A model generated the notes under the pieces. It saw nothing but the letters and a program-made list of their open reading frames with translations, was not told the DNA's origin and ran no database searches. From positions 1 to 36,699 of IMG/VR virus record IMGVR_UViG_3300046009_008280: DNA of 36,699 nucleotides; one strand, written 5' to 3'. The position numbers and the translations under genes are program-made. Positions 4,002 to 22,400 of this stretch are shown piece by piece (positions within the stretch are counted from its first letter, which is position 1; each line of letters starts with the position of its first letter). The DNA is from a virus.

Positions 4002-4391
4002 ATGAGCTTTGATCAAGAATTATTTGGAAATAAAAAGTTTTCTGATTTATTAAAAGATATTTACGATAATCAGAAAAAAAAGGAACGGCAACTCAATTTA
4101 TTGATTGCAGACCTAAAACCACTTATAACTAATATAAGTGATGCTGGTATGTTAGTTCCCTCTATCAAAGACTTAATGGAAGTGTCAGTTAAGAATGATG
4201 AACATTTAGTTAAATTGGCAGCGGTTATACAACGTGCTACAAGTAATAAAACTGAGGAGTCTTCCTCGTTCTTGACTGATGAAGAAAAAGAAGCCTTATT
4301 AAAGGGATTTCAAGAAATTCAAGAAGAACAAGAGGAAAACAAAATTGGCACAAAATCCACAAAAGACGATTCTGAATGGTCAGGAATATGA
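4002..4391 (+). CDS. Small helical protein of unknown function
   Basis: This 129-residue protein is highly charged and predicted to be mostly helical, with a Glu/Gln-rich C-terminal third (about 95-120). It has no membrane segment and no motif I can name. It lies directly between the sigma factor and the gp5-like hub gene, and its last 47 bases overlap that gene in another frame, so the two are likely translated together. In T4 a small late co-activator (gp33) works with gp55, and the size and position would allow a comparable protein, but nothing in the sequence specifically supports that. No ribosome binding site is visible; an ATATTTAT motif ends only four bases before the start codon. Confidence 0.7.
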   Translation: MSFDQELFGNKKFSDLLKDIYDNQKKKERQLNLLIADLKPLITNISDAGMLVPSIKDLMEVSVKNDEHLVKLAAVIQRATSNKTEESSSFLTDEEKEALLKGFQEIQEEQEENKIGTKSTKDDSEWSGI

Positions 4392-6648
4392 GAATATTCC
4401 TGCTGAAGTTGTTACGGTAGATTTTAGCGGTAAAAATAAAGAAAAATTATATACCATCTATTGTAAGTTCTTAGGTGCATTCGGCTCACAGACTCAACAA
4501 AATGTTGTTTCTGCAAGACCTTTAGACGCAAACATAAAAAACATACCAGTAAAAGGTGAAGTCGTTATGTTGGTTAAAGGTCCAACGTCATATAATAGTG
4601 CTCTTCGTTCAGGTCAAGAATATTACTACACAAATCCAGTCTCAATACAAAGTTCAGTACATCACAATGGTATTCCAGGTGTAACTGACTTTTCAGATAA
4701 ACCATCTACTCAAAATTTAAGTGCAAGAAAAAATGCAGAGGATGGTGCTACTAATAGAGTTGAATCACGTTTAGAAACAGGTAAAACGATAGATCCAGGA
4801 TTTCCAGAAAGATTGGATGTTTACCCAATTCAACCTTATCCTGGTGATATTATCATTGAGGGTAGGTGGGGAAATTCAATTAGATTGGGTTCTACTGTTG
4901 ATGAAAGAAGAGAATATCCACAAAGACCACTTTGGAAAAAAGGATTGGGTGATACTGGAAACCCTATATTAATAATTTCAAACGGTACTAATCCAGATAA
5001 AAAACCTTTTAATGAATTTATTCTCGAAGATCCAAACAATGATGATACATCGATTTGGATGACATCTGGACAATCGATAAACTTTACTCCGGCATCTACC
5101 ATAACAAATTCAATTGAAAATAGAGCAGTGAATCTGTTAACACGAAATGTTTTTGCGGGTAATCAAATTTTATTATCATCTGACAGAATAATTTTAAATG
5201 CTAAAAAACAAGAGTTAATTGGATTCAGTAGTGAAGGAATAGGATTTTCTTCTGAAAAAGCGATAGCGTTAGATTCTGGAATAGTTGTAGAAATGGAATC
5301 TAATCGTATAAATTTAGGCATAAACGCAGTATCTCCTGTTTTATTAGGTGACAAAACCATGCAATGGTTAGGTGACTTATGTGATTCACTTGCTAGTTTA
5401 TGTACATCGATAAGTAAACAAACCCACTTAACAGGTACAGGTGAATCACTTCCACCAACAAACGCTCCAGACTTTAATAAAATTAAATCAGATATAAAAT
5501 CATTACGCTCTTCTATAAAATCACTTCCAAGTAATTTAGTATTTGTTTGTGAAAATCCTGGCGGACCAACAAAAGCAGAAATGGATAAAGCTAAGGAAAG
5601 AGCTGCGAGTGGTGGTGGCTATGTTGAAACTAACAAACTAGATGGTGATAAGCCAGATATATTAGCAGGTGTAGAATTGGAGCAACCAGTGGTTAACGTT
5701 GTAACTATACTTACTGAATTAGGTGAAATTGAAAAACAGAAAAAAGTAATATTGGAAGAAATTTCTAAAGCATCTGGAACTTCGTTAACACCTGCTTCAG
5801 AAATGGGTATGAGTAGCGGAGAAGCAGAAGAAGCAGCAGAAAGAGGAGATTTTGCAACTGATCCTAATACACCAACTGATCCTAATACACCAACTGATCC
5901 TAATACACCAACTGATCCTAATACACCAACAACACCACCACCGACTGTTCAAATACCTGGTAGTGTTTCTTCTAATTATCCCAATGGTTTAACATACGAA
6001 CAATTAGGTTTAGAGCCGGCCAAGATGAAAAATATTGGTGGTAGATGGAATTATGATGGTGATGTTGATTTATCAGCAAAAACAAATCCACTTACAAATA
6101 AAAGATTTACAGAAATTCCTATACCGTTTGGTGTAGTAGCTGGTAATTTTAATTGTTCTAATATGGAAATTAAATCATTGAAGAATTCTCCAACTGAACT
6201 CGGTGGAACATTTAATTGTTCTGGAAACCAATTAGAATCCTTACAAGAAGGTCCAAAGAAAGCAAAATCATATCTATGTAAAAACTCAGAATTAAAATCT
6301 TTAACTGGCGGACCAACTGAAGTTACAAGTGAATTTGATTGTAGTGGAAACAGATTGGATACTTTAGTTGGTGGTCCAACTAAAGTTGGTTTTGCGTACC
6401 GCTTGGATGGAAACATAAAGATAACTTCATTGAAAGGTATTTCTGCAAATGGTCCATTGAATCCATTACAAATATTACAATGTGACAATTGTTCATTAAC
6501 AGATGCAACAATATTTGCAGGTGTAAATGAAATAAAAACAAAAACATTCAATGGTGGTTATCAACAAGATGCAGCAGATGGTACAGCAATAAAATTAGAT
6601 GCTACAATAATAAAAGAAATTACAGGTGCAAAAAATATATACGTTTAA
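4345..6648 (+). CDS. gp5-like baseplate hub protein with C-terminal LRR module
   Basis: The start is TTG 4345, chosen because AGAGGA (4331-4336) sits eight bases upstream and the protein then begins in step with the conserved region. Residues about 15-100 have the character of the gp5 OB-fold domain (VKGEVVMLVKGP, then TNPVSIQS). Residues about 150-215 (PIQPYPGDIIIEGRWGNSIR, GNPILIISNG) and 225-340 are rich in short beta strands and resemble the base of a spike. No lysozyme domain is present, in contrast to T4 gp5. A linker of four TDPNTP units follows (505-528). The last 230 residues form a leucine-rich-repeat module (core about 600-690) with units of the form FxCSGNxLxSLxGGP. The role is probably the central hub or spike. 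Two later proteins carry the same C-terminal module. Confidence 0.7.
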   Translation: MAQNPQKTILNGQEYENIPAEVVTVDFSGKNKEKLYTIYCKFLGAFGSQTQQNVVSARPLDANIKNIPVKGEVVMLVKGPTSYNSALRSGQEYYYTNPVSIQSSVHHNGIPGVTDFSDKPSTQNLSARKNAEDGATNRVESRLETGKTIDPGFPERLDVYPIQPYPGDIIIEGRWGNSIRLGSTVDERREYPQRPLWKKGLGDTGNPILIISNGTNPDKKPFNEFILEDPNNDDTSIWMTSGQSINFTPASTITNSIENRAVNLLTRNVFAGNQILLSSDRIILNAKKQELIGFSSEGIGFSSEKAIALDSGIVVEMESNRINLGINAVSPVLLGDKTMQWLGDLCDSLASLCTSISKQTHLTGTGESLPPTNAPDFNKIKSDIKSLRSSIKSLPSNLVFVCENPGGPTKAEMDKAKERAASGGGYVETNKLDGDKPDILAGVELEQPVVNVVTILTELGEIEKQKKVILEEISKASGTSLTPASEMGMSSGEAEEAAERGDFATDPNTPTDPNTPTDPNTPTDPNTPTTPPPTVQIPGSVSSNYPNGLTYEQLGLEPAKMKNIGGRWNYDGDVDLSAKTNPLTNKRFTEIPIPFGVVAGNFNCSNMEIKSLKNSPTELGGTFNCSGNQLESLQEGPKKAKSYLCKNSELKSLTGGPTEVTSEFDCSGNRLDTLVGGPTKVGFAYRLDGNIKITSLKGISANGPLNPLQILQCDNCSLTDATIFAGVNEIKTKTFNGGYQQDAADGTAIKLDATIIKEITGAKNIYV
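5857..5928 (+). repeat. Four perfect 18-bp tandem repeats (TDPNTP linker)
   Basis: ACTGATCCTAATACACCA is repeated four times without a mismatch (5857-5874, 5875-5892, 5893-5910, 5911-5928). It encodes TDPNTP four times as a Pro/Asp/Thr linker between the hub body and the LRR module. Perfect identity points to recent expansion. Any gain or loss of a unit keeps the frame and only changes linker length. Confidence 0.97.
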
Positions 6649-6661
6649 TTGGAGATAAAAT

Positions 6662-8812
6662 TTGGCTGGTTTTTCCACATATACAGTAACGGCAAATGAC
6701 TTTATATTCTTAAAATGTTCAAAGGCAGTAGAGGAGAGTGGATTTACATTACCACAAACTTTTAAGTTTATAGAATGTCCTGATGATCCGCATACAACAG
6801 AAGATGCTGTAAAACATAGAAAACTAGCAAGAGTATATTCGATAGCAAATATATATTGTTCTGGATTTGAATTAGAGTTAAGTGATAAAACAAAAAAATA
6901 CTTAAACGGTTATGAATACATAGGCGATGATAAATGTCCTATTGTAATTTTAGAAAAAGATAAAGCACCTACCGAAGACGATAAACCAGCACCAACTGAA
7001 AACATTAATGCAAAGAAAATGTTTGAATCAACAGTAAATTCTCCATTAACGTATGAATACACATTAGTAAACGCAAGAACGGCTGTATATGACGGTTTTA
7101 CACAAAGTGTAAAGGATTCTATATTAAGTGGAAAAATAAATGTTGACGCACTAAAAGATTCTGCTATAAACGCATTAAAAGATGCTGCACCTGGTGTTTT
7201 AAATTCTTTAGCTTCTAGTCTTGGTGTAGATACAAAAACATTGTCAGCAATAACAGATATTGTTGATTTTGTAGGTAGTGACAACATTATTAATGGTGAC
7301 ATTGATGCTATTAAGAAAAAATTATTAGAACAATTGGAATTAAAAAATTTAGTAGATATTGCATCAAAGCCAGAAATAACAGAAATATTATCTAAAACTT
7401 TAAATATTGGTAAAGATACTCTTACTAATTTATTTGATTCTTCAAAAAACATAAAAACATTGTCTGATATTAAATATATTGAAACATACACTACTACGGA
7501 TGATATATTTAAAGTAAGAATTATTGATGAAAATTTCTTAAATTCAAGACAATCACTTGATTTGATAGTATCCGCATCAGTTTTATTTTATTCAGATGAT
7601 GAGAAAGATAGAATAGAAGGTGAAAGAATAGCTAAGGGACTTTCCAAAGAATTTTTAAACCTACTTAAACCGATAGATACGACTTTTGATGAAAATGTAC
7701 AACCAAGACAAAGAGTTGTTTCTAAGGGTACTTGGTTAACATCATTTAATAAAGTGGATTATCGTATTCAAAAAATTGCTGCAATAGGGTTGGGATTTGG
7801 TATAGAAGAAGAAGGTGTTACAAAACTTCAAACATATATAGATAATTTGAATAAATATCAACAATTGAATGAAAAATCAGATGAATTGAGGGAAGGATTA
7901 AAAGACCACACCGAAATATTAGAAGAAGAAAACAGGTATAATTCAGATGCAGAAAAAGACTATAAAGAAAAACATGGTCTTACAGATAAACAATATGAAG
8001 ATTCTTTAGATATAGTGTATGATAGAAATAATGATAATCAATCGGACGTGGAATGTTATCAGGATACAGATCCAGACCAAGAAACACCAAATCCAGATAA
8101 TCCAGTTGATGTTATGGATCTTAATCCTGCATTGACTGTCAAGGATTCATTAGGAAATGTGATTTCATATAATGGTGACATTATATTAACTGGAAAAAGA
8201 AACGGTTATGATGGTAATTTATTAAAATCTATACCATTTAAAATTAAAAATGTTAATGGTAAATTTATATGTAAGAATATGGGATTAAAGAGTTTAGAAA
8301 ATGCACCAGATGTTGTAGAAGGTGATTTTGATTGTTCTGGTAACGAATTGGTTTCTTTAGATTTTGGACCAAAATCTGTTGGTGGGAATTATTTTGCTAA
8401 TAAAAATAAATTAGAAAACTTAGACGGACTTCCAGGTTCAATAGGACAAAATTTGAATTTATCTGAAAATAGAATAAGTAGTTTAGAAAATTTAGGTTGT
8501 GGAAAATCATCAACAGCATTAGGTTGCCCAACTACTGTGTTTGGTGATGTTAATTTATATGATAATGATTTAACTTCATTGAATAATGCAAATTTGAATA
8601 TTCGTGGTACACTTGATGTTAGTAAAAATGAATTAACCGATGCAACTATTTTTACGGGTATAAGTGAAGGATTGGGTGGTAAAAATGAGAGTTTCACTTC
8701 CGATATACGAGTTAAGAAATTCATTGGTATTAATCAACAACCAGACGGTGTTGAAAAATTAAGTAGCAGTTTAATTGGAAAAACATTACAAATAGACAAT
8801 ATTATAGTTTGA
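6662..8812 (+). CDS. Structural protein with C-terminal LRR module
   Basis: The start is TTG 6662, with GGAG at 6651-6654 seven bases upstream. The first 110 residues resemble no family I know. A helical middle part (about 150-260) has many Leu, Ile and Asp residues, and a mixed region follows (300-400). A charged helical stretch (about 395-455) leads to an acidic Asp/Pro linker (about 468-482, TDPDQETPNPDNP). The rest is a leucine-rich-repeat module (about 534-665) of the same type as in the preceding gene, ending with the same closing pattern (DATIFTGI, then GINQQPDG, then an aliphatic final strand). It shares the leader ATTGGAG with the next gene. The function is unknown; its place in the hub block suggests a tail-tip or spike-associated protein. 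Confidence 0.75.
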   Translation: MAGFSTYTVTANDFIFLKCSKAVEESGFTLPQTFKFIECPDDPHTTEDAVKHRKLARVYSIANIYCSGFELELSDKTKKYLNGYEYIGDDKCPIVILEKDKAPTEDDKPAPTENINAKKMFESTVNSPLTYEYTLVNARTAVYDGFTQSVKDSILSGKINVDALKDSAINALKDAAPGVLNSLASSLGVDTKTLSAITDIVDFVGSDNIINGDIDAIKKKLLEQLELKNLVDIASKPEITEILSKTLNIGKDTLTNLFDSSKNIKTLSDIKYIETYTTTDDIFKVRIIDENFLNSRQSLDLIVSASVLFYSDDEKDRIEGERIAKGLSKEFLNLLKPIDTTFDENVQPRQRVVSKGTWLTSFNKVDYRIQKIAAIGLGFGIEEEGVTKLQTYIDNLNKYQQLNEKSDELREGLKDHTEILEEENRYNSDAEKDYKEKHGLTDKQYEDSLDIVYDRNNDNQSDVECYQDTDPDQETPNPDNPVDVMDLNPALTVKDSLGNVISYNGDIILTGKRNGYDGNLLKSIPFKIKNVNGKFICKNMGLKSLENAPDVVEGDFDCSGNELVSLDFGPKSVGGNYFANKNKLENLDGLPGSIGQNLNLSENRISSLENLGCGKSSTALGCPTTVFGDVNLYDNDLTSLNNANLNIRGTLDVSKNELTDATIFTGISEGLGGKNESFTSDIRVKKFIGINQQPDGVEKLSSSLIGKTLQIDNIIV

Positions 8813-8827
8813 TAATTGGAGTTTTAA

Positions 8828-10117
8828 ATGGCAGAATTGAGTTCTGAAAGTAGTGCGTATAACAGATCTATGGAAAGTGGTTCTTTAACTAATAACACGT
8901 ATTTTTTAGATGACATAGATAAAGAAGAAGTTAACGTTACCGTTGTTGACCAAAATTATGGTTCACAATTATTAGAATTTATTATAGATGACGAAACACA
9001 GCCGGATGAAATTGAAACTGATGGTGATTGGAGTGATGTCAAAGTAGCAGAATATGGAGATTTAGACGCTGATTTACCAGGTGAAACAAATAAAGGATTA
9101 AGCGCAAATGGAAAAAGTCCATGTATACAACCAGGTTCAACAACTCCTGTTAATGCAAACGAAACAGCAAAAGAAACAACAGGAGAAGATAAATCAGGTG
9201 GTGGAACAGATACCGGCGGGGGTGGAGGTAGTGGTGGTAGTGTAATACAAGAAGGTGTAAAGGGCGAGGTAAAGGTAGAAACTACTAATTTTGTACCAAG
9301 TACTAATACTGGAAATGAACCACAACAAAATACAGGTAAAAAGATAGGTGATGTAATAAAACTTAAAGGTAATCTGTGGTATCAGGAAATTGAAATGTTT
9401 GCAGTAGCGTTTGGGAGTGTTTCAAATTTAACACCATTTGTACCAAAAAGCCAGGGTATAGAACGGGTTAAATCTTATACTAATAATGGTGATGGTGTAG
9501 CTAGAATTGAGTTGGGTACATCTGGATATGGTGGAACTCAATATAAGTTTCCAAAACAAGACTGGGGACCAAGATGGATAAATTTTAGTTATTTTGAAGA
9601 ACCTGCTATGGGATGGGCTAGTGGACAACCAACTGGTGCATTTATCATCAATGGAAAAAATTATGGAGCAAAAACCGCAAGTAGAATGTATGTTCCAGTT
9701 TTATATTGGTTAAAGGGAGATTCACATCCAAAACTTGCTAAATCTAAAGAAATATTTGTTGCAAAAAAAGCATCACCTCCACACGCACAAAATCCACAAT
9801 CTCAAGCTAGTTTTATTAACAATATAACCATAGCAGTTCCTGGTGCAGCAACCGTAGTTCAAGGGAACACTGTCAAAGGTAGTGAAGGTGGCGCATTTGT
9901 TGGTAAAACAAAAGATGGTTCTGGTAATATAAAATATTTCGTTGGATTAAAAACAGGTGGTGCAGCAAGTACTATGATAGCAGAAATGAATTCAAAAGGA
10001 AAACAAATAGAATGGATGGTTACAGCAGATCCAGGAGGTTCTTACCAATTTCATTCAGACGGTGAAAAACACCCTGCAAATACTAACCGAGGTATTCCTG
10101 TTGGATTAAAATGGTGA
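8828..10117 (+). CDS. Tail-tip structural protein, unknown family
   Basis: This 429-residue protein starts at ATG 8828 with GGAG at 8818-8821. An acidic N-terminal part (about 1-85) is followed by a low-complexity Thr/Gly linker with a run of five Gly residues (about 125-140). A C-terminal domain of some 280 residues follows, rich in Gly, Trp and beta strands (for example WINFSYFEEPAMGWASGQP and GSYQFHSDGEKHPANTN). The last segment, with ordered His and Asn residues and the ending GIPVGLKW, could be a surface or enzymatic domain, but I do not recognise it. There is no signal peptide. Position between the LRR proteins and the multi-domain lysin suggests a virion component. Confidence 0.7.
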   Translation: MAELSSESSAYNRSMESGSLTNNTYFLDDIDKEEVNVTVVDQNYGSQLLEFIIDDETQPDEIETDGDWSDVKVAEYGDLDADLPGETNKGLSANGKSPCIQPGSTTPVNANETAKETTGEDKSGGGTDTGGGGGSGGSVIQEGVKGEVKVETTNFVPSTNTGNEPQQNTGKKIGDVIKLKGNLWYQEIEMFAVAFGSVSNLTPFVPKSQGIERVKSYTNNGDGVARIELGTSGYGGTQYKFPKQDWGPRWINFSYFEEPAMGWASGQPTGAFIINGKNYGAKTASRMYVPVLYWLKGDSHPKLAKSKEIFVAKKASPPHAQNPQSQASFINNITIAVPGAATVVQGNTVKGSEGGAFVGKTKDGSGNIKYFVGLKTGGAASTMIAEMNSKGKQIEWMVTADPGGSYQFHSDGEKHPANTNRGIPVGLKW

Positions 10118-10194
10118 TTAGTACATAAAAACAATAAAAATTTATATAAACAAAATATATTTATAATATATACATATATTACGGAGAGAAATAA
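10118..10194 (+). promoter_or_regulatory. AT-rich leader of the tail lysin gene
   Basis: The 77-base gap is almost pure A/T. It contains ATATTTAT at 10157-10164 and a GGAG ribosome binding site at 10183-10186, eight bases before ATG 10195. The motif ends 30 bases before the start codon, a distance suitable for a phage promoter. Its role is inferred only from recurrence in other gaps. Confidence 0.4.
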
Positions 10195-13100
10195 ATGGCT
10201 GGTCCATTAGACGCAAGAGTGGAAATAGTTGGAAAATACGGCAGTTTTAGATCTTCTAAAAAAGCACTTAATGCACCATTAATATTTTTAGTTGGTGGTA
10301 TTTACGTAAATGGAAAACCACCAGGTGACTATATGTGGACTGACGGTTATGGTAGTATGACTGATTATAACATATATAATGTAACAACTACAAATAATGG
10401 ACCAGTTGGAACTGCTGGTTCAAAGGTTGTAAACAAAACAGGAATAAGTGGTGGATGGAAAGAATGTGTAGAATACTTAAATACGTATAAAATTACTCCA
10501 TCTAAATTTATATTATTGGGATTTTCTAAGGGATGTGAAGGATTTAATCATGCAATAAGTGCTGCAGGTGGTATTTCAAAGTTTGATTTAGTTTTATTGG
10601 CAGGTGTTTGGAGTAATGCTGGTGGTGGAGCTGTATCAGGTGGAGTTGGTACTGTTGCTAGCGCAATACAGAGTGCTCCACAAAAATGTTATTATTGGAA
10701 TTCAGGACAAGACGGTACGGTCTATGGATTAAATAAAATAACAGATGTCTGTGCACCTGGCCATTATATAGAATGGAAAGGTAGTCATCAGGGACAAATT
10801 AAAAAAACAGCAGATTGGATTAGGGAAAATGTGAAAGTTACATCTACCGGAGAAGCAGCAACACCGAGTAGTGCAGCAACTTCTACGGGAACAGGTGGAA
10901 CACCAAATCCAAAACCGGAAACAGGTGTAACAGAAAAACCACAATCAAAAACAGTAACAACTACAACTTTAGAAACTACTGGACCAGGTTGGCTAAAACC
11001 TGGAAAAATTGTTGCAGACGAAAAAGGTTTACAATTTTTAAAAAGATACGAGGGTATTCGTTATCAAGTTTATGATGATAAAGGCGGTAAAATTATAAGC
11101 AGTTACGAAGAAGCAAGAGGTTACCCAACTATTGGAATTGGTCATTTAATTGGTGGCGGTGAGAGAAATTTTTATTCAAAATATCTCGGTGGACGAGAAA
11201 AGATGACAGAAGCAGAGGTGTTAGCATTAAAGAAAAAAGATATACCAAGATTTGCTAAACCATTGAATGATAGATTGCAACAACCAGTTACACAAAATAT
11301 GTTCAATGCAATGCTTTCTTTGGGATTTAATACGGGTATGAATGGCGGCGCTATAAAAAAAGCCATAGCAGCGGTAAATGCAAAAGACTACGAGGGGGCA
11401 GCAAACGCTATTAAAAACGGTCCAAAAACTTCAAAGGGTGTTGTTATGAAGGGACTTGAAAAAAGAAGGAACGCAGAATATGAGATGTTTAAAGAAGGAA
11501 TGCCAAATTCTCAACCAACAGCTCAAAATACTACTGGACCAACCACAACAACATCTTCCGAAGTTGTAGAATCAAATGGAACTAATGAACAAGTAGCTAC
11601 TGCATCCAATGATTGTAATGATTTACAAAAAGAAGATGCAAAATTTAAAGCGCAAGAATCACCAGAAGGTTCTAAGATAGAAGAAGTAGCAAAAGATCCA
11701 TTACCACCTCCTAAAGATGAAACTCCTGTTAGTTTGGATGGAAAATATAACCATAGATTTTATATTTTACCAACTAAAGAAAATAAACCCCTTACATTAG
11801 CAGAGATGGTTGATAAAAAACAAAAATATTATAAAAGATATTGGGCATGGAGAACAGACGAAAATCCAGGATATGGAATTGTTGCAAACGAAAATAAGTT
11901 AGTATCGGATGATGGAAAACCTCTAATAAGTGCGCTAGTTCCATACTGGCCACCACATAGTGGATCTTTTGATGATATTAAAGAACCAACCGTAGCAGGC
12001 AAATGGTTGAATTTAATAAAAGGGCAAAAAGATATTGAATCTTTTTTAGATGTTCCAATTTTGTTGAATGCTTATGATGTTGGTGTTTTTAATGATAACA
12101 TAGGTTATGTTTTTGAAGCAGGTAATGAATTACACATGACTTTATTGGAAAAAGTTTTTCTTACAAACAAAGGTTCTCAGATTGGAATTGGTAACGCTGT
12201 AAATACAACAATATCAGATAAAAAAAATCAAGATTCAAGTTGGAGAGAATGGCCAAAGTGGTCTGGTATATGGGTTGAACATTGTTTGAAAAAATCTGGC
12301 TATACTTTATACGGTGATATAAGTGTAAACATCAATACTTACCATGAAAAACTTTTAAGTGGGAATAAATTAATAAATTATCCCGGTAATAAAGAATGGA
12401 AGTGGAAAGATTTGAAAGCAGCGGGTATGCAAGACCTTGTTTTTAAACCAAGTAAAATATGGTATGATCCAGCAAACTTAAATTCAGATGAATTATTAAA
12501 AGATACGGGTGATATTGCAATATTCATTGTTGATTATCATATAAAGAAAGATGGTACATTAACTGAAAGAGGGCAAAAATTATTAGATAAAATAATATCG
12601 TTGAATTGGAAATTAGGAGTTATTTCTGCCGTAAAAAGTCACACGGCACAATCTAATCAATTATATGCAGAAGTTTTAGTGTATCTTGATAAAACTGGTA
12701 AGATTGTTACCTTTGGTGGTAATACAACACCAAGGGGAGCAGATTCTATTCCAGGTGGTGGTCCATATCACATTGCTGTAAAAGAAACAAACTTCAAAGA
12801 TTTTGCAATATTAGCAGGTGATAATTGGATAAATGGTGCAGTATTTATTTCTAATGTTAAATCTGGAGGGGATGGACACAGAGTTGGTGGGTTGGATTCT
12901 AAGATATATACAACAAGTATATTCAAAGATTATTATACAAGAATTGATACTGAAAAAGGTAAATTAACAGGAAGAATGTATAATTTTCTTTTACCGTATA
13001 TTGAGCAAAAACCAGCTGCACCTGCACCTGCAAAAATAGAACCATCAGAATCAAATGAAGGACAACATACAAAACTACCAGTTTCTCGTGGAAATGACGG

Positions 13101-13713
13101 TGGGACAAATCAGGATGATGAAACTATATTAGATACTCAAGAAGTTGCTGTACAAAAAGGTATAATAACACCAATACCAGGATTTCCTGGTAAACATTTA
13201 AGAACCAATGCAGTACCAGACTTTGTTGCAATGGTAGCGGCTGCAAAATCAGCAGGGATTAAAATAGGTTTTGGTAGCGGAGATCCAACAAGAACAGTAG
13301 GTAAACAAATTTCTCTTTGGAAGAATCAGAAACCACAACTTAATCAGACACATAGATATATGGATCCAAATAATCCAAAAGAAAAAGATCTCATTAAAAA
13401 ACCTGGACTTGATAGTTATACTACTGATGGCAATAGAAATGATGTAGCACCACCAATGGGATACCATAGTAGTCAACCAAAAAAATATAGAGCGGGATCA
13501 TTTCATCAAAGGGGTAGAGCAATTGATATTGGTAATGCTGCGGGTTCAATTGGTGATACTGGATATGGAACTAATTATAAAAAATATCAACAAGATAGAC
13601 AAACTCCTGTTCAAAAATGGATTAGAGAAAATGGTGGAAAATATAACTGGTTTTCATATTGGCAAGAAGTGTGGCATTTTAATTATAAATATGATAAATC
13701 TATAACACCATAA
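10195..13713 (+). CDS. Multi-enzyme tail lysin: hydrolase, GH24 lysozyme, cysteine peptidase, M15 peptidase
   Basis: Four catalytic-looking domains follow one another in 1172 residues. First, residues about 25-215 show an alpha/beta-hydrolase pattern with nucleophile elbow GFSKG (Ser111), SGQDG (Asp173) and GSHQG (His198). Second, residues about 270-435 are a GH24 lysozyme with Glu286, Asp295 and Thr312 in the order of T4 lysozyme (PTIGIGH conserved) and a longer insert between Asp and Thr. Third, residues about 515-930 contain WVEHCLKK (Cys697), GDIAIF, KSHTAQ (His816) and FGGNTT, typical of NlpC/CHAP-like cysteine peptidases. Fourth, residues about 985-1170 are a VanY-type M15 zinc peptidase with SFHQRGRAIDIG (His1104, Asp1111) and EVWHF (Glu1158, His1161). 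Pro/Thr-rich linkers join the domains. It presumably cuts the cell wall during entry. The second and fourth domains are firm, the others likely. Confidence 0.85.
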   Translation: MAGPLDARVEIVGKYGSFRSSKKALNAPLIFLVGGIYVNGKPPGDYMWTDGYGSMTDYNIYNVTTTNNGPVGTAGSKVVNKTGISGGWKECVEYLNTYKITPSKFILLGFSKGCEGFNHAISAAGGISKFDLVLLAGVWSNAGGGAVSGGVGTVASAIQSAPQKCYYWNSGQDGTVYGLNKITDVCAPGHYIEWKGSHQGQIKKTADWIRENVKVTSTGEAATPSSAATSTGTGGTPNPKPETGVTEKPQSKTVTTTTLETTGPGWLKPGKIVADEKGLQFLKRYEGIRYQVYDDKGGKIISSYEEARGYPTIGIGHLIGGGERNFYSKYLGGREKMTEAEVLALKKKDIPRFAKPLNDRLQQPVTQNMFNAMLSLGFNTGMNGGAIKKAIAAVNAKDYEGAANAIKNGPKTSKGVVMKGLEKRRNAEYEMFKEGMPNSQPTAQNTTGPTTTTSSEVVESNGTNEQVATASNDCNDLQKEDAKFKAQESPEGSKIEEVAKDPLPPPKDETPVSLDGKYNHRFYILPTKENKPLTLAEMVDKKQKYYKRYWAWRTDENPGYGIVANENKLVSDDGKPLISALVPYWPPHSGSFDDIKEPTVAGKWLNLIKGQKDIESFLDVPILLNAYDVGVFNDNIGYVFEAGNELHMTLLEKVFLTNKGSQIGIGNAVNTTISDKKNQDSSWREWPKWSGIWVEHCLKKSGYTLYGDISVNINTYHEKLLSGNKLINYPGNKEWKWKDLKAAGMQDLVFKPSKIWYDPANLNSDELLKDTGDIAIFIVDYHIKKDGTLTERGQKLLDKIISLNWKLGVISAVKSHTAQSNQLYAEVLVYLDKTGKIVTFGGNTTPRGADSIPGGGPYHIAVKETNFKDFAILAGDNWINGAVFISNVKSGGDGHRVGGLDSKIYTTSIFKDYYTRIDTEKGKLTGRMYNFLLPYIEQKPAAPAPAKIEPSESNEGQHTKLPVSRGNDGGTNQDDETILDTQEVAVQKGIITPIPGFPGKHLRTNAVPDFVAMVAAAKSAGIKIGFGSGDPTRTVGKQISLWKNQKPQLNQTHRYMDPNNPKEKDLIKKPGLDSYTTDGNRNDVAPPMGYHSSQPKKYRAGSFHQRGRAIDIGNAAGSIGDTGYGTNYKKYQQDRQTPVQKWIRENGGKYNWFSYWQEVWHFNYKYDKSITP

Positions 13714-13833
13714 AAATAAAATATTTATACTACATTTATTATTAATGGTTTCCTTAAATTACCGAAAATATATAAAAATGATATTTATATTTTTAGATAG
13801 GTTATTATTAATAATTATTGAGTAGGTATTCAG
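13714..13833 (+). promoter_or_regulatory. Gap before the baseplate wedge block, two ATATTTAT motifs
   Basis: The 120-base gap holds ATATTTAT at 13721-13728 and 13781-13788. The second motif is part of an inverted repeat, ATATAAA-N7-TTTATAT, followed by a short T-run. The stem is A/T only, so it would be a weak terminator at best. The start of the wedge operon lies 45 bases after the second motif. A possible 26-codon reading frame inside the gap has no ribosome binding site. Confidence 0.4.
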
Positions 13834-14265
13834 ATGGAATCGAATCAGTTTTTTAAGAAAATCCGAGAAATAATCAGAGAAGAAATAGATTACGCTTTGG
13901 ATAAAAAATTAAATACTCCACCGGTAGTCAAAAAAAGTCAAAAAGAAACCATTGAGCATGGGTTATCTTTATTAAAGCAATATCAAGATAAACCTAAACC
14001 GCAACAAAAACCAAAACAATCAAAATCAAATTTTGGTTCTATACAAGATATTTTAGCAGAAACAAGAAGAACATTACAAGAAAGCAACGATTTAGACGGT
14101 GAATTTTCATTCACATCTGATATGGCAAGCGGATTAGGTAATTCTAAATACGGTGCTATACCACACGGTGTTGATCCAAACGAAGTTCCAACAGAAGTAA
14201 TGAGTGCGTTAACAAGAGATTACTCTGCACTTGTTAAAAAAATGGATGAGAAAAAAGGGAGATAA
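13834..14265 (+). CDS. Small charged protein at head of wedge operon
   Basis: This 143-residue protein begins with an amphipathic helix (FFKKIREIIREEIDYALDKK). A Lys/Pro/Gln-rich flexible part follows (about 50-68) and then a more ordered second half (SIQDILAETRRTLQE and a Gly-containing stretch). No membrane segment or catalytic motif is seen and the family is not recognised. It is three bases upstream of the gp25-like gene and clearly co-transcribed with it, which suggests a virion, assembly or chaperone role in the baseplate. A weak TAGG (13823-13826) precedes ATG. Confidence 0.65.
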   Translation: MESNQFFKKIREIIREEIDYALDKKLNTPPVVKKSQKETIEHGLSLLKQYQDKPKPQQKPKQSKSNFGSIQDILAETRRTLQESNDLDGEFSFTSDMASGLGNSKYGAIPHGVDPNEVPTEVMSALTRDYSALVKKMDEKKGR

Positions 14266-14268
14266 TGA

Positions 14269-14763
14269 GTGTCAATATTTAGAAGAAAACGAGAAGTTGT
14301 AAATCCTAATAATCCAGATATAAATTTGGGTAAACCAATTGGTGTTTTAGTTCCGTTTAATGCCGACGTTGGTATATTTAAACAGAGTTTTACAAATACT
14401 CAACAAGTTTTATCTAACTTGAAAAATCTTCTATTGACTTCAAAAGGTGAACGATATATGTTGCCAACTTTTGGTACGGATATTCGTACTATATTGTTTG
14501 ATAACATTTCAAGTGAAGACGATTTTACAAGTAGATTAAATTCTGAAATAGAAACTGCTATTTCAGAATGGATGCCGTTTTTAACAATCGTTCAATTAGA
14601 AACAATAATACCAGCAGTTGATCCACGATTAGATGATCCAGGTCATGCTGTTTCTATAAAATTAGTTGTAAAAATTAGTGGTACAAACATTTATCTACCT
14701 ATACAGATATTTATATCAGATACAGGAAACTTACTAATACAAGAGGCAATCTATAATGGCTGA
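14269..14763 (+). CDS. gp25: Baseplate wedge protein, gp25-like
   Basis: The start is GTG 14269 behind GGGAG (14257-14261); an ATG at 14265 is out of frame and meets a stop after five codons. The 164-residue product shows the gp25 / lysozyme-like W family pattern: NLKNLLLTSKGERYMLPTFG, then IRTILFDNI, then a helix leading to a central Trp (ISEWMPFLTI). T4 gp25 has 132 residues, so about 30 are added, mainly at the N-terminus. gp25 forms the core bundle of the baseplate wedge with gp6 and gp53 and contributes to the sheath initiation site. The eight-base overlap with the gp6-like gene reproduces the T4 gene order 25-6. Confidence 0.92.
   Translation: MSIFRRKREVVNPNNPDINLGKPIGVLVPFNADVGIFKQSFTNTQQVLSNLKNLLLTSKGERYMLPTFGTDIRTILFDNISSEDDFTSRLNSEIETAISEWMPFLTIVQLETIIPAVDPRLDDPGHAVSIKLVVKISGTNIYLPIQIFISDTGNLLIQEAIYNG
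14707..14714 (+). promoter_or_regulatory. ATATTTAT motif inside gp25, ahead of gp6
   Basis: The motif lies within the 3' end of the gp25-like gene, 41 bases before the gp6 start, and is extended to TATTTATA. The spacing to the next gene is similar to that of the intergenic copies at 13781 and 10157. It could serve as an internal late promoter, or be chance in an AT-rich coding region. Confidence 0.3.
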
Positions 14764-16657
14764 TTTAGTTAAAAAAGACATTCGTTATCTTTCAAGAGAT
14801 TTCTCTTCTTTGAAACAAAACCTTATTGATTTTACGAAAAATTATTTTCCAAATACATATCAAGATTTTAATGAAGCATCACCTGGTATGATGTTCTTAG
14901 AAATGGCTGCATATGTTGGTGATGTTTTGTCATATTATACAGATGTTACTCTTCAAGAAACAATGCTTTTACACGCAACTGAACGTGTAAACATATTAAA
15001 TACGGCACAGTCTCTTGGATATATGCCTAAAAATAGAATTGCTGCTAATGTAAAACTTGATGTTTTTCAAATAGTTCCTGCTAAAACTATAGTTTCTACT
15101 AGTGGAAGTCAAGTTGTACCAGATTATTCATATGGATTTGCAATAGAACCTGGTATGGTAGTTGGTTCGTCAACTAACACTAATGTTCAATTTAGAACAG
15201 TTGATTTTATTGATTTTAAATTTAGTAGTAATATTGATCCAACGGAAGTAACACCGTTTGAAATAGATGTGAATGGTGAAGTTTTATTTTGGTTATTAAA
15301 AAAATCAGTAAAAGCAGTTTCTGGTAAAGTAGAGTATCAAGACTATGAATTTGACGATCCAAAACCATATGATAGAGTTGTATTAAATAATCCAAATCTC
15401 ATAGAAGTTTTATATGGTATTGATTCGGATAACAATACTTGGTATAATGTACCGTACTTAGCAGCAGATACAATATTTGAGCCAGTTATAAATATTGCAA
15501 GAAATGATACAGAGTTATCCGCATATAGAGATGAAACACCATATCTTCTTAAATTAAAGAAAGTTGCAAGAAGATTCACTTTAAGAACAGTTGATCAAGG
15601 AATTTATGAAATACAATTTGGTGCAGGAGTTGCTGACTTAGATGATGAGGAACTAATACCTAATCCAGAATTAATTGGAAATTCTTTAACTGGCATAGAA
15701 AGTTCTGTTTCTTTAGATATAGACCCATCTAACTTTTTATATACTAAAACATACGGACTTGCTCCAAGTAAAACTACAATTAGAGTTTATTACACGACTG
15801 GTACAGGTATTCAAGATAATGTTGCAAGTGATACTCTTACTAGAATTTTAACTAGAAGTATACTGTTGGATGAATCTGGACTTGATGGTGTTTTATACTC
15901 TCAGATAGTTGCAAGTTTAGCGGTTACAAATCCAAAGCCCGCCATAGGTGGTAAAGCAGGTGATGAAATAAACGAAATACGAAATAATGCTTTAGCAAAT
16001 TTTGCTTCACAAAACAGAGCGGTAACCAAAGAAGATTATATTATTAGGGCTTACACGTTACCTTCTAAGTACGGTTCTATTGCAAAAGCGTATATTACAA
16101 AAGATACACAGTTAACGGTTGAATCCATATATAATACAGAAAGAATTCAGAATAATTTAGCCTTAAATTTTTATGTATTAGGATATGACGCTGATAATAA
16201 ATTAACTCTTATTAATGATGCAACTAAAGAAAACTTAAAAACTTATTTGAATTATCATAGAATATTAACAGACGCTATTAACATTCGTGATGCGTATGTA
16301 ATTAATATTGGTATTGAATTTGATATAATAACGTTTCCAGATCAAAATAGTAATCAAGTTATATTAAGATGTATAAACCGATTAAAACAATATTTTGATG
16401 TAAATAAATGGCAAATAAATCAACCTATTATAGTTAGTAATATATTCACCGAATTGGATAGAATAGAGGGTGTACAAACCGTTGTTGATGTTAAGTTAAC
16501 AAATAAATACGATCAAACATTAGGTTATTCACCAAATGCTTATAATTTACAAGAAGCAACAAGAAATGGAATTGTTTTCCCTTCTTTAGATCCTTCTATT
16601 TTTGAAATAAAATACCCAGATAATGATATTATTGGTAGAGTGAGGGCATTCGGATGA
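14756..16657 (+). CDS. gp6: Baseplate wedge protein, gp6-like
   Basis: This 633-residue protein (T4 gp6: 660) carries the typical N-terminus of the gp6/gpJ family: YLSRDFSSLKQNLIDFTKN, then SPGMMFLEMAAYVGDVLSYY, then ERVNILNTAQSLGYMP. The middle has the characteristic NRAVTKEDY motif (around residues 420-427), shared with the gpJ-type baseplate_J domain. The C-terminal part contains the helix-rich wedge dimerisation region. gp6 dimers form the iris-like ring that links the six wedges and triggers sheath contraction. AGAGG (14742-14746) is nine bases before ATG. It overlaps gp25 by eight bases and the next gene by an ATGA junction, so the three are strongly coupled. Confidence 0.93.
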   Translation: MADLVKKDIRYLSRDFSSLKQNLIDFTKNYFPNTYQDFNEASPGMMFLEMAAYVGDVLSYYTDVTLQETMLLHATERVNILNTAQSLGYMPKNRIAANVKLDVFQIVPAKTIVSTSGSQVVPDYSYGFAIEPGMVVGSSTNTNVQFRTVDFIDFKFSSNIDPTEVTPFEIDVNGEVLFWLLKKSVKAVSGKVEYQDYEFDDPKPYDRVVLNNPNLIEVLYGIDSDNNTWYNVPYLAADTIFEPVINIARNDTELSAYRDETPYLLKLKKVARRFTLRTVDQGIYEIQFGAGVADLDDEELIPNPELIGNSLTGIESSVSLDIDPSNFLYTKTYGLAPSKTTIRVYYTTGTGIQDNVASDTLTRILTRSILLDESGLDGVLYSQIVASLAVTNPKPAIGGKAGDEINEIRNNALANFASQNRAVTKEDYIIRAYTLPSKYGSIAKAYITKDTQLTVESIYNTERIQNNLALNFYVLGYDADNKLTLINDATKENLKTYLNYHRILTDAINIRDAYVINIGIEFDIITFPDQNSNQVILRCINRLKQYFDVNKWQINQPIIVSNIFTELDRIEGVQTVVDVKLTNKYDQTLGYSPNAYNLQEATRNGIVFPSLDPSIFEIKYPDNDIIGRVRAFG

Positions 16658-17826
16658 TTTATACACTATACGCTCAAAAAGATACAACTATTTATGAAAA
16701 ATTTGAAACACTTAATAGCGGATTAGATCCATTATTAGAATTATCTCACGAAAAAGCATCTACATCATCTTTAGTTTATAATAGTCGTGTTTTAATGAAA
16801 TTTGACATGGACGAAATAGAAAGTAGAGTTAATAGTGGTAAAATTTCTCAAAACGCAAAATACTATTTATCATTACGTTCTGCTGACGTTAGAGAAATAC
16901 CACAAGAATATACTGTTTACGCTTATCCACTAAGTTCTTCTTGGACAAACGGAACTGGAAAATATTTTAATAATCCAATAACTACCGATGGCACTTCTTG
17001 GAAATATAGAACATCAAAAGCAAATGCAACTGAATGGAATATTCCACCTACAATTGCAAATTATGAATGGGATAATGCTTCACTAACTTGGGTTGATGCT
17101 AACCTTTTATTTGGTGTAAACCTTTCAGCGTATGTTACTTCATCTTATAATTCTAAGGAAGGTGGTGGTACATGGTGGACATATGATAATGTAGAGTGTA
17201 CACAATCGTTTTCATATGAATCTTCTGACATTTATATGAACATTTCTCAGATAGCTAAAAAATGGATAACTGGTTCTGGTAGATTTGTAAACGATGGTTT
17301 AATTATGAAGTTCAGTCAAGAACTTGAAAATTCAGGCGAAAGTTTAACAAGTCTTAAATTTTTTGGTACTGATAGTAATACAATATATGTTCCAAGATTA
17401 CACGTTGTTTGGGACGATTCTATATTTATTACTGGAAGTTTAACACGAGTAGATGTTGACGGATTAACACCAAACATTAAGTTAAAGAAGTTTTATTCAC
17501 AAGATGAAAAACCAAAAATAAAAATACATGCTAATAAAAGATTTCCACAAAAAAATTATACAACTGAAGCATATCATTTAACAAATTATTATTTACCGTC
17601 ATCTTCTTATTATGAAGTAAGAGATGCACATACTGATGAAGTAATTTTACCTTTTGATTATACTGGTTCAAAAATAAGTTGTGATGGTACAAGTAGTTAT
17701 TTTAATTTATGGATGAACTCTTTTCAACCAGAACGATTTTATAGAATAGTATTAAAAGTAGAAACATCGGGCGGAGATAATGTTCAAATATTTGATAACA
17801 ATTATTACTTTAAGGTTACGAGATAA
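16654..17826 (+). CDS. Baseplate/tail protein with DNRLRE-like N-terminal domain
   Basis: The gene starts within the stop codon of gp6 (ATGA), with GAGGG at 16642-16646. The first 250 of 390 residues resemble a DNRLRE jelly-roll domain: YAQKDTTIYEKFETLNSG at the start, then a run of strands with SRVLMKFDM, then conserved YPLSSSWTNGTGKY and a final SLKFFGTDSNT. Such domains are known from secreted carbohydrate-associated proteins, and related sequences occur in tail proteins of marine phages. The last 140 residues form a second beta-rich domain (FYSQDEKPKIKIHANKRF and YYEVRDAHTDEVILPFDY). It stands where T4 has gp7, but there is no clear similarity to gp7. A peripheral wedge role is an inference. 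Confidence 0.7.
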   Translation: MIYTLYAQKDTTIYEKFETLNSGLDPLLELSHEKASTSSLVYNSRVLMKFDMDEIESRVNSGKISQNAKYYLSLRSADVREIPQEYTVYAYPLSSSWTNGTGKYFNNPITTDGTSWKYRTSKANATEWNIPPTIANYEWDNASLTWVDANLLFGVNLSAYVTSSYNSKEGGGTWWTYDNVECTQSFSYESSDIYMNISQIAKKWITGSGRFVNDGLIMKFSQELENSGESLTSLKFFGTDSNTIYVPRLHVVWDDSIFITGSLTRVDVDGLTPNIKLKKFYSQDEKPKIKIHANKRFPQKNYTTEAYHLTNYYLPSSSYYEVRDAHTDEVILPFDYTGSKISCDGTSSYFNLWMNSFQPERFYRIVLKVETSGGDNVQIFDNNYYFKVTR

Positions 17827-17828
17827 TT

Positions 17829-19421
17829 ATGTTAAATCGAGATGCAGTAAGCGGTGGAATACTAAGTTATACCGATGATAGTGGAATTCAAAACGAGGGG
17901 GTTCTTGATGTAGCAGTATTAGATGGAAGATTTTTGCGTAGAGATTTTTCTCGAATAATAGATACTAATTTTAAGTCATTGAAAGAAGCTACTTCCGCGG
18001 AAGCAAATATAAATAAGAAAATAAGAAGTATTCAGAATAGAGCATTGATACCGGGTGAGTTTGCTAAAATAATTGGACAAGAACCATCAACAACATTAAG
18101 TGATTCAGAAAAAGCAGAATTAGCTAAAAAAGAATTTTTAACTAATATATCTAATTTAATTAGTACCGATGGCAATACCGTTACTGGCATGCAATATCAA
18201 ATGAATCAAATGCAAGAACAATTAGCAACTAAGGATTCGATTATAAGTCAACAAATACAAACAATTTCAAAATTTGATGATGTTTTATCATCGGTTTCTG
18301 CTGAAAGAGCACTTGCTGTTTCAAAAGCAGAAAGATTACGTGAAGCAAATGTTTCATTACAAAGACAAGCAGATGAAAAATTAGCAAGGATACAAAACGA
18401 AGTGGTTGCTCAAAGAAAACAAGCAGAAAAATCAGCAACAGAGTTAAAAACTGCGTTGGTAGATAATATAAGTGCAACAAATACAAAACAAGATGTTGAT
18501 ATTGAACAACTTAAATTACAAAATTTACAATTACAACAAAATCTTGTAGACACAGCTAATGCAATATCTGATACAAAACAATCTATAATAGATTTACAAA
18601 ATTCAGTAATTGATGCTGCTGCAGCCGATGGTGGTGCAAATGATACTCCACCACCACCACCACCACCACCAGACGGGCCAACTACGGATCCTAATATATT
18701 AACAGCTCTTGGATTACAAGATACTGACGTCTCGTATGTTGACACTCCAAGCGGTAGAGTTATGAATGTGTTCAGAAGTGTAAAAGTTTCATCACAAGCG
18801 GTAAAAAATGGGGCACTTATGGTAAAGTTCGGTGTTGTTAATGGAATATTTGATTGTTCTGGTGTTGGGTTAACAACTTTAGCAGGCGCACCGTCTAAGT
18901 GTTCTGAATTTAATTGTTCTAATAATTTGTTAACCTCATTACAAGGTTCACCACAAACTGTTTACGATGGAACAGTTGATTGTTCTAAAAATAAATTAAA
19001 AGATTTATTAGGTGGTCCACAAACTGGTGCTTTTACTAAATTAGACGGTGATGTTGCTAATGCACAGCGTAATACGTTTTATAGATATGATTGTTCGGAC
19101 AATTTATTGAACACTCTAAAGGGGTATCCTCAGACTTCTTCGGATTTAGGTGGAATTACCGATATTACGGTAATAATGGCGGATTTTAATTGTTCCAATA
19201 ATCAGTTTCTTTTTGTAATCGATGGTGTAACTGCCACACCAGGAAAACAACCTATGAATAGATTTAATGCAAGTAATTGTCTTCTTACTGATGAAACGTG
19301 GACACGTTCTGACGTACGTTGGGCAACCTTGGAATTTAATGGTGCAAATCAACAAAATGGAAAAAAATTAGACGCTAATAAAGTAAAACAATACACAAAA
19401 GCAGTAACCGTTATAGTATAA
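17829..19421 (+). CDS. Coiled-coil baseplate protein with C-terminal LRR module
   Basis: A short N-terminal head (about 1-60, including GVLDVAVLDGRFLRRDFSR) is followed by a long Gln/Ala/Lys-rich helical region (about 110-260) with clear heptads, probably a trimeric or dimeric rod. A run of eight Pro encoded by eight CCA codons (residues 274-281) ends the rod. A leucine-rich-repeat module follows (about 335-490), with units such as DCSGxxLTTLAGAP and NCSNNLLTSLQGSP, and a closing segment (FNGANQQNGKKLD) like those of the two earlier LRR proteins. The head may plug into the wedge while the rod displays the LRR at the periphery. The family of the N-terminal part is not recognised. Confidence 0.75.
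   Translation: MLNRDAVSGGILSYTDDSGIQNEGVLDVAVLDGRFLRRDFSRIIDTNFKSLKEATSAEANINKKIRSIQNRALIPGEFAKIIGQEPSTTLSDSEKAELAKKEFLTNISNLISTDGNTVTGMQYQMNQMQEQLATKDSIISQQIQTISKFDDVLSSVSAERALAVSKAERLREANVSLQRQADEKLARIQNEVVAQRKQAEKSATELKTALVDNISATNTKQDVDIEQLKLQNLQLQQNLVDTANAISDTKQSIIDLQNSVIDAAAADGGANDTPPPPPPPPDGPTTDPNILTALGLQDTDVSYVDTPSGRVMNVFRSVKVSSQAVKNGALMVKFGVVNGIFDCSGVGLTTLAGAPSKCSEFNCSNNLLTSLQGSPQTVYDGTVDCSKNKLKDLLGGPQTGAFTKLDGDVANAQRNTFYRYDCSDNLLNTLKGYPQTSSDLGGITDITVIMADFNCSNNQFLFVIDGVTATPGKQPMNRFNASNCLLTDETWTRSDVRWATLEFNGANQQNGKKLDANKVKQYTKAVTVIV
18648..18671 (+). repeat. Eight CCA triplets encoding polyproline linker
   Basis: Eight CCA codons in succession encode Pro8 between the coiled-coil rod and the LRR module. 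A homogeneous triplet run is prone to slippage, but length changes stay in frame and would only alter a stiff linker. Confidence 0.97.
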
Positions 19422-19435
19422 CATAGGATATTTTA

Positions 19436-22400
19436 ATGTCAAATTTTAATTATACAAATATAGACTCAATACTTTCAGCAACGAATCCCATTCGTGGTTC
19501 AAGAACACGCTTATCTTCGGTTAGAAGAAAATTAGTTGTTCCTGTATTGAATGATACGGAAGAACAATATTTTGGTAAGGAATCATCACTTGAACTACAC
19601 GTATTTATGAAAAATACAGTTTATGTTGATAATTCTTCTTTGTATGACTTACCATTTAAAATAGAATCAAGAACTGAGAACATTGTTATAGGTGAAGAAA
19701 CTCAAGTTACTACAAGAAAATATGTTTTAATAGATGTGCATGACCATATTCAAAATTTATTACAATTACCAGTAGATAACTACAAAATTGTTTATAACTT
19801 TTTTAGAAATCTTATCGGTGGATCTACTGATGAAAATGGAAGATTATTTATAGCAGATATTTCACAGGATAGAAAAGAATTAAAATTAACACTTAAATAT
19901 CCAAATAATACATCAGCAAAAACTTCATTAACACAATTTGTATTAAACTATTTATCATCAACAACTTATTTACCACCGATTATATTAAATTTTGGTGAAA
20001 ATTTAATTGTAGATGTTATTAATATCACATCTGATGGTGATGATACATATTTCTATGTTAAACTATATGACACACTTCCACCTGAAATTGATTTATATTA
20101 CGAATGTTGGTTAGGGAGTCAAATATTAAAACCTTGGATAGATAATATAACTGTTCTTAGACAAGAATCAATGGAAATGATTCCTTACATTAAGGGACCA
20201 AATTTTGAAGTAGATTACGATTATTGGGTTAATAATGAAACTGATTATAAATCTTGGAGTGATTTATTATCAACAAATGTTCAAACTTCGCAAGAAATAT
20301 TAAACCGTTATATAAATAACACAGGTTCGTCTGTAAAATTAAATGTGGATTTTAGAGACTTTTCAAACTTTATATTCTATTCTTCAGCAGAAGACAGGAT
20401 TGATAATTTCTTTTATAAAATTGGTTTGATTGAAACATATAATACACAGTTATCTTTATTGAATACATATACGGGTTCTGTTAGTGCGAACATTATTAAT
20501 GTTAAACATTTACGAGATAAAATTACCCAAGGATTTGATGATTTTGAAAAATGGATGTATTATGAAACAACCTCAAGTAATTTTTATACTAGTCAGTCCG
20601 CTGCAATAATTACACCTTTTCCAAAATATGAAGTTAATCCAACTTCAAGTGATTACCATATTTTAACTAAAGACGGTAAATATAAATTATATTCTGTTTT
20701 GTCTGATACTGCTCTCGATTGGCACGATGATGTATTGGATGAGGGACTTGCATACGATTTAAAAAATTATAATTCACTCAATAAAGCTATACCAGAATAC
20801 ATATTGGATGATGGTCAAAGTAATCAATTTAAAACATTTGTAAATATGATTGGTCAGCACTTTGACATTTTGTATTTATACACCGATCATATTTTAAAGA
20901 AAAACACAAGAAAAGAAAATCCAAAAGATGGACTTTCACAAGATTTAGTTTATGAAGTAACTAAAAACTTAGGATGGACACTTTCAAGTGGAACTCAAAC
21001 AAAAGACCTTTGGGAATACGCACTTGGATTAAGTGGAAGTGGTGAACCTATTTGGACTGGTAAAACTACAATAAATAAATATCTTTCAAAGCCAGAAGAA
21101 GACAGAACAAAGGAAGTTTGGAGAAGAATATTAAATACTCTTCCGTATGTATATAAAAGTAAAGGTACTTCACGAAGTATAAAGGCATTACTTTCCGCAT
21201 ATGGAATTCCTTCAACTATTCTTTCAATTCGTGAATATGGTGGTCCTGATAATGCAGACTTTGGTAAAATTCCAAGAGCAGAGTGGGATAAACAAACATA
21301 TTATCTTAACTTTTTAGGAAGTAAGCAGCAACCAAAAACAAATCAATATGTACAAGTTCCTTGGGAAAAAGTAAACAACGCTAATAATCAATGGCAATAT
21401 CCTGATACTTTAACTTTCCGTTGGAAAATGCATGATGCGAAATACTATCCGTACCATGATAATAAAGTTCAAACTATTTTACAAAAACAATCTGGTAGTA
21501 GATTAGATTGGTATGTAACAATAGCAAACGATGGAACTGATTATGACAAAGGAAGTTTAACTTTTCACATGAAAGGCGAAGACGTTACTACAACTGATGG
21601 TTGGTCAAAAGTATCAGCAGGATTCAACCATAGTTCTGCAATTAAAACAAATGGTGAACTTTGGGCATGGGGATTAAATACGAGTGGACAACTAGGTGAT
21701 AACTCTACTACAACTACATCAAGTCCAGTTCAAATTGGGTCTTCATCTGATTGGTATTATGTTACCACTGGTGATTATTATACATTAGCAATTAAAACAG
21801 ATGGTACACTTTGGGGTTGGGGAGCACAGACTTATGGCGAACTTGGAAATAATTCTACTACAACTACATCAAGTCCAATTCAAATTGGTACTTTATCTAA
21901 TTGGTCAAAAGTAGAAGGTGGAAATAACCATGTATTCGCTATTAAAACTGACGGTACACTTTGGAGTTGGGGCTTTAATGGAAATGGTGAATTGGGCGAT
22001 GGTACAACTGTTAATAAATCATCTCCAGTTCAAATAGGAACTTTATCAACTTGGTCATCTATATCTGCTGGTTCAAACCATGGATTTGCGATAAAAAATG
22101 ATAATACGCTATGGGGTTGGGGTAGAGGGACTTTTGGTGAATTGGGAGATAATACAACTGTTAATAAATCTTCACCCGTACAAATTGGTTCAGGTTATTC
22201 AGTAGTTTCTGCTGGTGGATATTATACATTAGCAGTTAAAACCGATGGGACACTTTGGAGTTGGGGGTATAATGATAACTATCAACTTGGTGATGGTACT
22301 ACAACCACACAATCTTCACCTGTACAAATTGGTACAGGATTTGCAACAGTTTTTGCTTCAATGGATGCCGGTGGATTATCTTATGGTACATCATTGGGTA

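Follow-up and report, generated by a model that had tools for sequence, protein, structure and literature searches.

Three proteins with unrelated N-terminal parts end in the same LRR module in the DNA stretch analysed here (the window), a 36.7-kb IMG/VR record from an uncultured phage (IMGVR_UViG_3300046009_008280; GC 31%) that was taken at its full length and reads as a myophage-like tail region. These proteins are encoded from positions 4345 (A), 6662 (B) and 17829 (C), and both these coordinates and the sequence motifs by which an initial annotation had recognized the module were confirmed. The window also contains a gp25-type wedge gene at 14269 and a gp6-type gene at 14756 (PHROG match); by gp6, Microcystis phage Mel-JY01 (69%) is the nearest isolate, followed by Flavobacterium phage immuto (41%). 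B is directly followed by the genes of a protein at 8828 and of a 1172-aa lysozyme-domain protein, while C comes after the gp6-type gene and a DNRLRE-type gene. Judging from gene position, the three modules would occur together in one virion. The features discussed below are:

4345-6648, + strand: protein A, 767 aa
4345..5856, + strand: carrier of A (residues 1-504), probably a baseplate spike or hub of the gp5/VgrG type
5857..5970, + strand: linker of A, (TDPNTP)x4 plus TPPP
5971..6648, + strand: LRR module of A (residues 543-767) with N-cap, seven strands and closing cap (blastp, AF2, VIA-align)
6493..6648 including the stop codon, + strand: closing segment of A (residues 717-767) with last LRR strand, helix and terminal strand
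6662-8812, + strand: protein B, 716 aa
6662..8065, + strand: carrier of B (residues 1-468), predicted by AF2 as a small alpha/beta domain followed by a mostly helical part
8066..8107, + strand: linker of B, DTDPDQETPNPDNP; pLDDT <50 at residues 453-474
8108..8812, + strand: LRR module of B (residues 483-716; blastp, AF2)
8630..8812 including the stop codon, + strand: closing segment of B (residues 657-716; DSSP and profile tests)
10195-13713: 1172-aa protein containing a phage lysozyme domain (Pfam E 7e-21); a VanY-like match lies slightly below cut-off
17829-19421, + strand: protein C, 530 aa
17829..18647, + strand: carrier of C (residues 1-273), a conserved N-terminal part followed by a putative long coiled coil, judged by eye from the sequence
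18648..18680, + strand: linker of C, Pro8 plus DGP
18681..19421, + strand: LRR module of C (residues 285-530; blastp)
19281..19421 including the stop codon, + strand: closing segment of C (residues 485-530; shuffle and profile tests)

As the initial annotation had held, the parts preceding the modules are unrelated to each other (best blastp E values of 1.4-10), and searches of all three carriers against Pfam, NCBIfam, PHROGs and PDB sequences gave nothing decisive. For carrier A, no sequence match was found in Pfam, NCBIfam or PDB, and no lysozyme domain was found in protein A. Its fold was matched in BFVD to an OB-fold protein of the Gp5/VgrG type (E 3e-4, prob 0.69, from a carrier model of low pLDDT) and further to a baseplate hub/lysozyme protein (E 0.028), and 1 of 11 carrier A orthologues matches the baseplate protein family phrog_4011. 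Gene position together with these weak matches of a poorly modelled carrier makes a gp5/VgrG-like spike our best guess for A. Carrier B found no match by tblastn of phage records and has no named homologue, and Foldseek against BFVD and PDB returned no match at E<=0.001, which does not establish a new fold.

The carriers are joined to their modules by linkers of the Pro/Asp/Thr type that had been described for them, i.e., four TDPNTP units in A, TDPDQETPNPDNP in B and Pro8 in C. At the DNA level, the A linker is an 18-bp repeat (4.2 copies with 100% match at 5855-5930 according to TRF) and the Pro8 of C is encoded by eight CCA codons (18648-18671). The A linker is predicted to be disordered (AF2 pLDDT <50 at residues 501-544).

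The modules themselves are about 225-246 aa long and consist of an N-cap, seven LRR strands and a closing segment. In blastp comparisons, the modules of A and B align with 34% over 228 aa (E 1.7e-25) and those of A and C with 29% over 207 aa (E 2.7e-19), in both cases over nearly their whole length, while the best piece between B and C covers 62 aa with 44% (E 9e-9). The seven strand motifs follow a basic spacing of 21 residues plus insertions (in A at residues 600, 621, 641, 662, 683, 709 and 733). Each protein closes with the motifs that had been reported for it, namely LTDAT..FNGGYQQ..KNIYV in A, LTDAT..FIGINQQ..NIIV in B and LTDET..FNGANQQ..TVIV in C.

Alignments and profiles showed that this ending is common to all three proteins beyond generic LRR resemblance. 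With the closing segment alone, none of 2000 shuffles scored as well as the real sequences for A-B or A-C (B-C, 11/2000), and closing profiles built with one carrier left out found the third carrier at 0/2000 shuffles in all but one of ten tests, the exception being B of the window with 7/2000. On these shuffles and profiles, an independent LRR origin of all three modules was rejected. A profile of the common phage C-cap matched the closing segments of A, B and C no better than shuffles except for B of relative G009 (14/2000) and for C (66-72/2000), and in the reverse test the A/B/C closing profile matched the common phage C-cap at 126-1351/2000 shuffles.

Of the cap and ending that were proposed to be shared, the cap gives the weaker pairwise signal. 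Compared on its own, it is significant only for A-B (p=0.001, with 0.30 for A-C and 0.59 for B-C), and by inspection its motif is common among the standalone LRR proteins that large phages encode; taken alone, the cap thus does not indicate common origin. Among 1146 distinct ORFs from related viral loci, cap-only and closing-only profiles matched strongly only orthologues of A, B and C; outside of these, the cap-only profile gave weak matches with a best E of 0.0084. The closing segment is confined to the A/B/C carriers within the loci examined, and the other N-terminal partners that had been anticipated did not emerge from a closing-only scan of viral contigs, which with its short and C-biased query returned three known relatives and none new.

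AF2 predicts the A module as an LRR solenoid of curved parallel strands (pLDDT mostly 82-97 per 10-residue block, with two blocks at 65-70). In the AF2 models of A and B the endings form a strand-helix-strand (by DSSP, E732-736, H753-760 and E764-766 in A and E686-688, H702-709 and E713-715 in B) that closes the solenoid, so we interpret these endings as a C-terminal solenoid cap rather than as a separate pairing device. VIA-align places the A module close to the binding LRRs of InlA, YopM, InlC2 and IpaH at Z 14-15 (best Z 15.3, InlA and YopM), and a sequence profile of 19 modules found Internalin-J (E 5e-16) and SspH1 (E 4e-14) in the PDB. Close relatives show no change at the core positions of the LRR strands (0/14 variable for A, for B and for C). 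Among curated family models, a match to which is no essential feature of the fold class, Pfam LRRNT matches only C (14 bits, below the cut-off of 25.8), Pfam LRR_4 reaches E 5e-4 in 1 of 19 modules, and no LRR model of NCBIfam matched them.

Those IMG/VR relatives whose sequence spans the block keep A, B and C and their neighbouring genes in the same order. Modules are present on all three proteins in G002-G005 (with A of G002 seen as its C-terminal part only) and on A and B in G006-G008 and G017-G019, where the C orthologue is a protein of 300-360 aa lacking the module; A and B also carry it in G009, G020 and G021, in which C is not covered or was not found. The A orthologues of G011, G012-G016, Mel-JY01 and immuto are module-free, as is C wherever it is seen in these genomes, so that C orthologues without the module come from G006-G008, G012-G019, Mel-JY01 and immuto. 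Some of the module-free orthologues end in a Gly/Thr tail where the linker would begin, and the linkers of relatives are swapped for other low-complexity repeats (TDPNTP, GSNAT, GTSGTS or GATGGT). In G012, G014 and G015, the same gene block encodes other large proteins with an internal LRR region.

In a tree of gp6, the phages with all three modules form one group (100/99) that is next joined by G008 and G019 (93/96), so that the C module is the most recent gain, on the branch leading to the window's group. In the module tree, the modules of each carrier come together in a single group, with A- and B-modules as likely sisters (91/94, slightly below the starred threshold) and C-modules apart from them, beside the LRR regions of G012, G014 and G015 at weak support. 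The alike endings of A and C prompted the idea that the C module might descend from the A module within this genome, although C does not fall inside the A group of the tree.

Divergence of carrier and module can be independent. Between the window and G005, carrier B is 47% identical with a dS of 1.15 while its module is 82% identical with a dS of 0.30, and C shows the reverse (carrier 60%, module 43%); for A, the comparison with G003 gives a dS of 0.59 for the carrier and 0.16 for the module. Sliding windows place an identity change in B near the start of the module. Mosaic changes also affect neighbouring genes such as the one at 10195; recombination is common across the region, and breaks at the module edge are therefore not unique to the module. 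Exchange of modules probably occurs between matching genes of related phages. The idea of a plug-in display module thus holds insofar as one tethered and dispensable module sits on different carriers, but the module tree argues against its free spread between carriers: the module was gained a few times and then kept. Altogether, these patterns support an accessory tethered domain rather than an obligatory oligomer lock or a constantly shuffling unit.

The 10195-13713 protein is 85-100% identical to that of the close relative G003 in its middle and mostly 20-65% in its N- and C-terminal parts. A conserved baseplate-block gene at 16654-17826 has a DNRLRE-domain match below cut-off (NCBIfam E 4e-5). 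The baseplate-block protein at 19436-24541 contains an RCC1-like propeller (Pfam RCC1 E 2.5e-60; RLD-type match at residues 719-980). With 1701 aa in the window and 1690 in G005, this protein is longer than its orthologues in G002, a close relative (1336 aa), and in G008 (about 1345 aa), so the propeller may represent another optional insert. Five structural-type proteins at 25466, 26701, 27806, 31606 and 32891 have a common C-terminal segment, TxVGLYNDxNxLLAIAKLxxPI, and the one at 32891 additionally carries a concanavalin-like lectin domain (Pfam E 5e-16).

The exposed strand positions on the concave face differ between the three modules in how far they vary. Among five close A sequences they are variable in 15/21 cases compared to 29/103 elsewhere (p=0.0003), with strands placed by hand from their motifs, sequences that are related and positions that are not independent by descent, and this variation rests mainly on G004 and G005. 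The same positions are conserved in B (4/21 variable) and C (2/21). Module dN/dS between close relatives is below 1 (about 0.2-0.45). Given the few related sequences, the motif-placed strands and this dN/dS, we regard the variation in A as a lead and not as proof of selection. Such a pattern fits a ligand of A that varies and partners of B and C that do not.

The data show that the modules are homologous, separable from their carriers and absent from some orthologues, together with the predicted fold in A and B and the variation pattern in A; that they sit on the virion, are flexible and bind the host with their concave face is what we infer. Three proteins encoded in the tail-tip block would have received the LRR domain at their C-terminal ends, each through an unstructured linker: A, probably a spike of the gp5/VgrG type, B, its neighbour from the hub block, and C, probably a coiled-coil protein. 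Its concave face would grip a ligand, and the leash would let it reach out from a rigid baseplate. Since the module is optional and the leash flexible, the best reading is that the tethered LRR serves as an accessory binding arm on the tail tip that grips its ligand with the concave face, an interpretation for which we consider the chances to be about even. Host binding by the modules is plausible. For A, the ligand probably changes from phage to phage, as would be expected of a molecule on the host surface. B and C, whose concave faces are conserved, may instead bind a constant host structure or a partner within the virion. In a more specific version that we consider rather unlikely, a phage lineage would equip its central spike with a tethered LRR; the concave face of this LRR would diversify from phage to phage, and the sister LRRs of the two other tail-tip proteins would retain theirs for constant partners, giving an LRR counterpart of receptor-binding tips on the spike and not on fibres.

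A virion partner is central to the most serious alternative, in which the LRRs are adaptors that dock other baseplate components, e.g., the cell-envelope enzymes encoded beside B, onto the spike or baseplate. The conserved concave faces of B and C would agree with such a role, as would the position of the 8828 and lysozyme-domain genes right after B, but the exposed face of A is more variable than the rest of its module, and phages without B or the module retain the enzyme genes (the 'putative chitinase' of Mel-JY01, and G011). An LRR region and an 8828-like domain are joined in one polypeptide in G015, and G014 encodes 8828-like proteins with LRR remnants; the fusion in G015 keeps the adaptor a candidate, especially for B and C, though overall we think it unlikely.

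We disfavour as improbable that the module is an oligomer lock, with closing segments that pair and thereby trimerize or stabilize their carriers. All three proteins do end in a short aliphatic strand, and within the loci examined the closing segment is specific to these carriers, both of which would suit a lock. However, its predicted place is at the end of the solenoid, orthologous A and C proteins exist without any module, and the linker varies in length and sequence and is predicted to be disordered in A and B, which all speak against a structural clamp. Quite improbable, too, is that the modules bind not the bacterial host but animal mucus or some other surface in the environment; a role of this type has been proposed for an LRR-like tail-module protein of a vibriophage, with an HHpred probability of 10% reported by its authors (PMC10945359), but the window's LRR class is also found in bacterial genomes such as those of Chlorobiaceae. 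Least credible is a generic similarity that reflects independent acquisition by three genes, since, for all the abundance of related LRR genes in large phages and Chlorobiaceae and the placement of the C module outside A and B, the carriers share their closing segment beyond shuffles and A and B are sisters at 91/94, which leaves this possibility for C alone.

It is well known that virion proteins can carry optional binding domains, and LRRs have already been described in phages, including the one in the vibriophage tail module (PMC10945359). The open-licence papers searched did not describe any three tail-tip proteins that share an LRR module and have module-free orthologues. The relatives form a comparative series in which all three proteins bear the module, only A and B do, or A and C both lack it; this gain and loss on defined baseplate proteins makes an adhesin role on a phage spike testable. 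The add-on could help the phage to hold its host. LRRs are abundant in large phages, mostly without assigned function, and thus become candidate virion binding domains.

Several viral contigs are particularly rich in such genes. The 596,785-bp contig G023 (IMG/VR 3300020045_008999, locus L131) has 113-157 tblastn matches to the LRR modules, spread over many separate ORFs of about 140-350 aa that constitute a very large family on one huge viral contig. In the contigs L024/L043 (3300028374_000002), L028, L031 and L040, paralogous LRR genes stand in tandem, with as many as a dozen or so per array, and many members within an array end in a common C-terminal segment, e.g., ..DRLQTFIRDNDLEMPDLEEIKKHYKIIE. 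The bacterial genomes with relatives of the module-type LRR (loci L185-L261) are mostly Chlorobiaceae, and two of three LRR proteins inspected from these loci (299-387 aa) end in the common C-cap.

Compared to known systems, the short-repeat LRRs of large phages and Chlorobiaceae are built from the same unit of ca. 21 residues as the modules (F-x-C-S-x-N-x-L-x-S-L-x-G-x-P), those of phages have an N-cap motif of the same kind by inspection (Y/D-G-D-V..IPxxFGxVxGxFxCS), and their C-cap FTEExVRxVCxVxGKIYV resembles the A/B/C ending in layout; however, the proteins inspected are mostly standalone, with 150-390 aa and no virion-protein carrier. The LRRs of YopM/IpaH/SspH and the internalins, known from solved structures, form a solenoid like the predicted module (Z 13-15, rmsd 3-5 A), yet they belong to secreted or surface proteins of bacteria, have no phage carrier and are only about 10-20% identical to it. 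Central spikes of the gp5/VgrG type are similar to carrier A in gene position and by weak fold match, while A has no detected lysozyme domain and bears an added, tethered LRR. Ig-like domains on phage structural proteins are well documented, and these add-ons parallel what we propose here as an optional surface-binding domain on several unrelated virion proteins, though with a different fold.
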